In this document: piece by piece, positions 2,533 through 6,401 of the stretch | How the letters are laid out: every line of letters begins with the position of its first letter | Numbering within the stretch: the first letter of the stretch is position 1 | NCBI GenBank assembly: GCA_947454715.1 | Contig: CANGMZ010000018.1 | Span: 1-39,599, forward strand | Length of the DNA: 39,599 nt | DNA from: Chitinophagaceae bacterium | Lineage (GTDB): Bacteria; Bacteroidota; Bacteroidia; Chitinophagales; Chitinophagaceae | Direction of reading: 5' to 3' | Made by a program: the position numbers and the translations under genes | Notes under the pieces: model-generated | What the model was told of the DNA's origin: nothing | The model's database searches: none | The model's input: the letters and a program-made list of their open reading frames with translations, nothing else

Positions 2533-2706
2533 GCGGTAAAGATAGAATTATTATAACAAACAAAAAACAAATCCAGATGTTTTTAATTTAAAAAGAAGGT
2601 AGCTACATCTATACATTTAGCAAAAAAGCGTGTTTTAGTAGCTTTATATTCAAAAATAATATACTATGCAAATGAAAAATCAACAATATGTAAATAATTA
2701 TAAAAT

Positions 2707-2793
2707 AAAAAAAAGTCTCAACTTTCGTTGAGACTAGTTGTGTTGTAATACAGGATTTTTGACGTCCCATTACAACCTCGAGGTTTGGCACCG
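2707..2793 (-). ncRNA. Candidate small structured RNA with intrinsic terminator
   Basis: Minus-strand RNA approx. GGUGCCAAACCUCGAGGUUGUAAUGGGACGUCAAAAAUCCUGUAUUACAACACAACUAGUCUCAACGAAAGUUGAGACUUUUUUUU. Perfect 8-bp stem GUUGUAAU/AUUACAAC, terminal hairpin GUCUCAAC-GAAA-GUUGAGAC followed by U8, and an upstream TTTG-N21-TACCTTTG promoter. Confidence 0.7.
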
Positions 2794-2796
2794 ATA

Positions 2797-2829
2797 CAAA
2801 GGTAACCAAATAGACAGACACCACACAAA
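2797..2829 (-). promoter_or_regulatory. Bacteroidota-type promoter for candidate sRNA (TTTG-N21-TACCTTTG)
   Basis: Minus strand TTTG at 2829-2826, 21-nt spacer, TACCTTTG at 2804-2797. Matches the known Bacteroides -33/-7 consensus TTTG/TAnnTTTG. Confidence 0.65.
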
Positions 2830-2880
2830 TAATGTTTCATTTATAAATAATACGTAGCTTTATCTCTCAGAATAATCAAA

Positions 2881-6008: not shown

Positions 6009-6401
6009 TTGGAGCATATATTGAGTACATTAGAGGAGAGGAAAAAGCCGGTGGCCCGTCTTGCAAAAAACAGCAAGCTATTTAAAACAATAATAAATAC
6101 CATCAAGGAAAAGAAGGGAGAGAACATAGTTGTACTTGATCTTAGAAAAATTGATGAAGCAGTTGCCGATTTCTTTATTCTTTGCGATGGCCGTTCTAAT
6201 ATTCAGCTCAAAGCGATAGCCGATAATATTAAAGATGATGTGGAACTGGAATGTGACGAAAAACCTTACCACGTAGAGCATGGCGATAAATGGACGCTAG
6301 TTGACTATATAAATGTTGTTGTGCACGTTTTCCAGCACGAACAACGTGAGTTCTATAGTCTGGAGAGTTTGTGGGCAGATGCTGAGCGTACTGAATATTA
6401 A
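6009..6401 (+). CDS. rsfS: Ribosomal silencing factor RsfS (probable TTG start)
   Basis: DUF143 signature: VVLDLRKIDEAVADFFILCDGRSNIQLKAIADNI...HVEHGDKWTLVDYINVVVHVFQHEQREFYSLESLWADA; sits directly upstream of ftsH. Confidence 0.92.
   Translation: MEHILSTLEERKKPVARLAKNSKLFKTIINTIKEKKGENIVVLDLRKIDEAVADFFILCDGRSNIQLKAIADNIKDDVELECDEKPYHVEHGDKWTLVDYINVVVHVFQHEQREFYSLESLWADAERTEY

Follow-up and report, generated by a model that had tools for sequence, protein, structure and literature searches.

The minus strand of the window, a 39,599-nucleotide stretch of Chitinophagaceae bacterium DNA (contig CANGMZ010000018.1), carries at 2793-2707 a well-supported candidate gene for a new, structured, stand-alone small RNA (sRNA) of ~87 nt. 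Invariance falls on the first 15 nt at its 5′ end, of which 13 are antisense to helix 89 of 23S rRNA; this is the main point gained beyond an earlier note on this DNA, which had proposed a structured candidate sRNA equipped with a promoter and an intrinsic terminator. The sRNA family is previously undescribed and is absent from Rfam. The best reading, which we hold to be rather probable, is that of a stand-alone trans-acting sRNA that would pair with the helix 89 strand of immature 23S rRNA and thereby shape 50S maturation.

Architecture of the candidate gene

The elements named in the earlier note were all found on the minus strand where it had placed them. TTTG lies at 2829-2826 and is followed, after N21, by TACCTTTG at 2804-2797; the palindrome AACCTCGAGGTT occupies 2785-2774; the stem GTTGTAAT/ATTACAAC pairs 2776-2769 with 2749-2742 and carries a GGGA/TCCT extension; the terminator stem-loop spans 2735-2714, after which the T's run to 2707. 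The candidate gene is known from these letters and from its homologues, and we infer its transcription from them. Its parts are the following.

2797 to 2804, minus strand: -7 promoter box TACCTTTG, Bacteroidota-type (direct reading; conservation in homologues)
2707 to 2793, minus strand: candidate sRNA gene of ~87 nt, predicted 5′ end C2793 or G2792 (homologues, promoter spacing, tRNA-fused form)
2779 to 2793, minus strand: invariant 5′ tag CGGUGCCAAACCUCG (exact in 30 of 30 covariance-model loci)
2780 to 2792, minus strand: 13 nt GGUGCCAAACCUC, complement of the 23S rRNA helix 89 3′ strand GAGGUUUGGCACC
2742 to 2776, minus strand: hairpin with a lower stem of 8 bp, an upper stem of 4 bp, a 2-nt bulge and a 9-nt loop
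2736 to 2741, minus strand: A-rich unpaired linker ACAACU (position kept in homologues)
2707 to 2735, minus strand: intrinsic terminator with a 9-bp stem, a GAAA-type loop and a U tract (independent terminator detection)

Across 48 distinct loci the family RNA measures ~85-100 nt and keeps the order 5′ tag, hairpin, A-rich linker and terminator. The linker ACA occurs within the RNA at 40 of these loci, and a terminator, an element absent from the search model, lies downstream of all 48. With a -7 box in 45 loci, the proposal of a structured small RNA possessing its own promoter and terminator is borne out. The promoter itself stood in part: in TAnnTTTG, the T-A and TTTG are 98-100% conserved over 45 homologous loci, at a fixed N3 before the RNA start, whereas the TTTG element at -33 showed no conservation among the same 45 promoters.

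Three species of genus g33 carry the RNA directly 3′ of tRNA-Phe(GAA), with no promoter between the two and with an identical 5′ base, and this tRNA-fused form suggests, as an independent pointer, where the mature 5′ end would lie. The corresponding loci L049, L051 and L052 (genomes G261, G284 and G042) have neither promoter nor terminator between the tRNA and the sRNA, which must therefore be released from the tRNA transcript; as predicted from this layout, the g33 arrangement is a coupling of sRNA expression to a stable RNA.

A coding function was also considered. In five loci the frames inside the RNA contained stops and showed no consistent start for a small ORF, and the 71-aa ORF at 2609-2824 of the window gave no Pfam match.

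Fold and covariation

The 90-nt RNA folds with -25.6 kcal/mol (z = -3.7), and none of 200 shuffled sequences was as good. Upon removal of the terminator the fold is weak (z = -1.24); much of the folding signal is thus supplied by the terminator, and single-sequence folding alone would not decide. The comparison of relatives bears on the hairpin directly, as changes on both sides were seen in 12 of 12 pairs among 43 distinct rows. The hairpin cells are paired in 94.8%, against at most 48% when the alignment is slid and 73.5% when it is shuffled, and the covariation score is 0.612 compared to 0.215 in shuffles, values which lean towards the model since the hairpin alignment was fitted to it. Both stems drawn in the earlier note are kept in relatives, and this comparative evidence, together with the compensatory changes, confirms the predicted RNA structure. 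Of the 13 complementary nucleotides of the tag, 6 are predicted to lie inside a weak hairpin of 3 bp.

Family and distribution

In its own genome the sRNA sequence occurs as a single copy; clear homologues were found in three genomes of the same genus and in one other genus. The first BLAST also returned L012-L015, which match the terminator or a fragment only and were rejected. The covariance model R1 was built from the 5′ part and the hairpin only, promoter and terminator being left out deliberately, and a search of 349 genomes from the family with it gave ~30 strong matches. Although this search tolerates mismatches, the tag GGTGCCAAACCTCG was exact in all 30 fetched loci. A pattern scan for TTTG-N3-Y-tag over 84,980 species genomes returned 48 loci, of which 42 or 43 are real; the real ones are annotated as Flavipsychrobacter, Taibaiella, other Chitinophagaceae or Bacteroidetes, and the others were put down to chance or to bin contamination. 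Altogether the homologous loci amount to 48 distinct ones forming a single family around Flavipsychrobacter and Taibaiella, whose members begin with the invariant 15-nt start YGGUGCCAAACCUCG.

Outside this group, the refined model R2 yielded no convincing member among 399 genomes at order level and 376 at phylum level, in agreement with the pattern scans. By these searches, the candidate sRNA family is restricted to one family of Chitinophagales (Flavipsychrobacter, Taibaiella and relatives). Several scattered hits were discarded. L099, L102, L107 and L117, from other phyla, are chance pattern matches in which the hairpin is absent. L019, L133, L134, L138, L139 and L175-L186, also outside the family, do not show the set of promoter, hairpin and terminator and were read as chance. 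L100, assigned to a 'Phycisphaerales' MAG (JASGCQ010000032.1), is a copy of the Chitinophagaceae type that hardly differs from L033, and it probably reflects bin contamination. A phage origin was rejected, there being no phage match, and L132 (viral_contigs) is a chance pattern with neither hairpin nor terminator.

The sRNA is also absent from several close relatives with complete genomes (G006, G007). Since its presence is patchy even within a genus, it would be an accessory element, not one essential to ribosome assembly in general.

The earlier note had not recognised the RNA as a known riboswitch and had raised the question of an existing Rfam family. Rfam 15 gave zero matches at the gathering threshold in the whole window and only weak sub-threshold ones at the sRNA. 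The best of the latter, MicC (E = 0.026, 28 bits against a gathering threshold of 90) was rejected, being driven largely by terminator-like pairing.

Complementarity of the 5′ tag to 23S rRNA

Thirteen of the 15 invariant nucleotides of the tag, GGUGCCAAACCUC, match the reverse complement of GAGGUUUGGCACC in 23S rRNA without a single mismatch. This is the 3′ strand of helix 89, which we take to correspond to about 2487-2499 of E. coli, in the peptidyl-transferase centre. The positions of C2498 and A2503 in a published study (PMC11194073) agree with this placement. Most sRNA-bearing MAGs have no 23S gene, so that the match was read directly in three genomes (G004, G443 and G412), which are all the sRNA-bearing ones whose assembly includes this gene. 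In 23 sRNA-bearing genomes, perfect sites for the 13-mer are confined to the sRNA gene itself and to 23S rRNA. A match of at least 13 nt arose by chance in 8 of 20,000 shuffled tags and in 0.0008 of genomic 15-mers (~4-8e-4). The computed energy of the tag/23S hybrid is -27.1 kcal/mol, compared to -18.1 kcal/mol for isolated helix 89. Taken together, we infer 23S helix 89 as the putative target of the sRNA.

The 23S target is near-invariant in bacteria, which makes co-variation uninformative for this complementarity. G029 is the sole relative seen with a changed site, its 23S rRNA (L141) having a compensated change in helix 89, CTTACCC/GGTAAGG instead of CTCCCCC/GGGGAGG; the sRNA was not found in that genome, which consequently brings no co-variation evidence. 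A second rRNA contact made by the hairpin and linker did not surpass shuffled controls in the five loci tried.

The same tag could instead be the seed of a classical regulator that pairs with several mRNAs, its complementarity to 23S rRNA being accidental. Messenger-targeting sRNAs with invariant 5′ seeds are known, and those of the RybB, MicA and OmrA type share with this RNA a stand-alone gene of ~80-100 nt, a single-stranded conserved 5′ end, a central hairpin and a 3′ intrinsic terminator, a layout that fits; moreover, seeds of 7-10 nt fall below the reach of 13-nt searches. Nevertheless, the RNA is unrelated to them in sequence, its conserved end matches 23S perfectly, with the chance probability given above, and the one-mismatch 13-nt sites in eight genomes had no orthologous mRNA in common, the only homologies being between large repetitive proteins. 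We therefore consider regulation of mRNAs unlikely as the explanation of the tag.

The tag might also be an element bound by a protein such as an RNA chaperone, or a start-site element read by RNA polymerase, with a coincidental likeness to antisense 23S. Position G15 is invariant, yet it is unpaired with 23S, so that another constraint must exist, and the preceding pyrimidine is fixed as well; invariance hence reaches one base past the complementarity. Against this stand the low chance probability of the 23S match and the tRNA-fused form of g33, which keeps the tag without a promoter of its own and speaks against a pure initiation element. We judge such an element to be quite improbable as the whole account.

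Proposed mechanism

For the preferred reading, pairing with 23S rRNA, the state of the ribosome matters. The target strand is buried in helix 89 within finished 50S subunits, and pairing would thus need nascent or immature 23S rRNA, in which the exposed 5′ end of the sRNA could reach the 3′ strand of helix 89. Because the hybrid is computed to be stronger than native helix 89, pairing would hold this helix open, and a helicase or an assembly factor would later have to remove the sRNA. The hairpin and terminator may serve as a stable body or as a handle for a protein.

The helix 89 region differs in 50S assembly intermediates, and for residues 2498-2500 of helix 89 a misfold with the P loop has been described (PMC11194073). 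Tag pairing would cover 2498-2499 and, with them, this misfold. Since the intermediates differ around helix 89 and the misfold could be covered by the tag, a 50S assembly helper or checkpoint, keeping the helix 89 strand from misfolding, is slightly favoured provided that rRNA pairing takes place. On the same proviso, a growth brake that would stop 50S maturation is our second choice and a plausible minority view, and titration of the sRNA by free rRNA appears improbable.

Comparison with known RNAs and significance

One parallel in action is offered by the box C/D guide RNAs (archaeal sRNAs and eukaryotic snoRNAs) and by chaperone snoRNAs such as U3/snR30, which have a similar rRNA antisense stretch of ~10-20 nt near the active centre and, as the present sRNA would likewise do, act on pre-rRNA. 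In contrast to the box C/D RNAs, the RNA described here has a bacterial promoter and terminator. Box C (RUGAUGA) was found in 0 of 48 loci, as was the pair of box C and box D (CUGA), and membership of the box C/D class is excluded by motif. That the sRNA is a bacterial counterpart of the chaperone or guide snoRNAs, its invariant 5′ end pairing with helix 89 to control maturation of the large subunit, is put forward tentatively, at somewhat short of even confidence.

Among bacterial small RNAs, 4.5S RNA (SRP RNA) has a short conserved stretch in common with 23S rRNA; this resemblance is in the sense orientation, whereas that of the present sRNA is antisense. The 3′ETS-leuZ RNA, derived from a tRNA 3′ external transcribed spacer, is a sponge for other sRNAs, and the g33 form resembles it in lying directly 3′ of a tRNA, here tRNA-Phe; in contrast, most members of our family have their own promoter.

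In bacteria the role in ribosome assembly is filled by proteins, antisense RNAs being used in archaea and eukaryotes, and to our knowledge no trans-acting small RNA acts on bacterial ribosome assembly. In the open-access literature, we found no bacterial small RNA antisense to the peptidyl-transferase region. For the ribosome-associated ncRNAs (rancRNAs), a direct action of small RNAs on ribosomes has been proposed (PMC7914890); the bacterial ones are mostly fragments of other RNAs, unlike the dedicated and conserved gene with antisense complementarity reported here.

If pairing is true, the sRNA may help or block the building of ribosomes, and it would be categorically new only if pairing is proved. 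With a perfect 13-nt antisense match to the catalytic centre in a conserved bacterial RNA gene, the idea lends itself to direct testing in cultured Flavipsychrobacter stenotrophus RB1R16. Should the rRNA link fail, the sRNA family would still stand as new and well supported, and few sRNAs have been characterised in its phylum.

Genomic neighbourhood

Different genera have different genes flanking the sRNA, and in most loci the closest gene downstream lies antiparallel to it. Such diverse neighbours imply a trans-acting RNA. They also settle the choice, posed in the earlier note, between a stand-alone sRNA and a terminating leader, in favour of the former. A 5′ leader or riboswitch that terminates ahead of the acyl-CoA dehydrogenase gene would agree with four Flavipsychrobacter genomes, in which the terminator precedes the ATG of this downstream gene by ~175 nt and shares its strand; given the different neighbours in other genera, and G006, in which the FG-GAP/acyl-CoA dehydrogenase pair is kept and the RNA is absent, we regard such a leader as very unlikely. 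Dimerisation through the palindrome AACCUCGAGGUU, also suggested in the earlier note, is hardly credible: of the 48 distinct loci, only 7 contain the 12-mer, which is present in the window, and 21 contain CCTCGAGG.

Several features around the stand-alone sRNA were observed in passing. The ribosomal silencing factor RsfS has its gene at 6009-6401 of the window on the plus strand, ~3.2 kb from the sRNA, a proximity that is probably coincidental. In genus g22 and relatives (L086, L104, L106 and L114), a gene recognised by eye as a SpoU/TrmH-like RNA methyltransferase lies just upstream on the same strand. Within one subgroup, the sRNA is followed in many loci (L085, L088, L108, L109, L112, L123, L125, L128 and L131) by an antiparallel efflux-like operon which, as read by eye, comprises a DHA2-type MFS transporter, a membrane-fusion protein, an outer-membrane factor and a TetR-like regulator.
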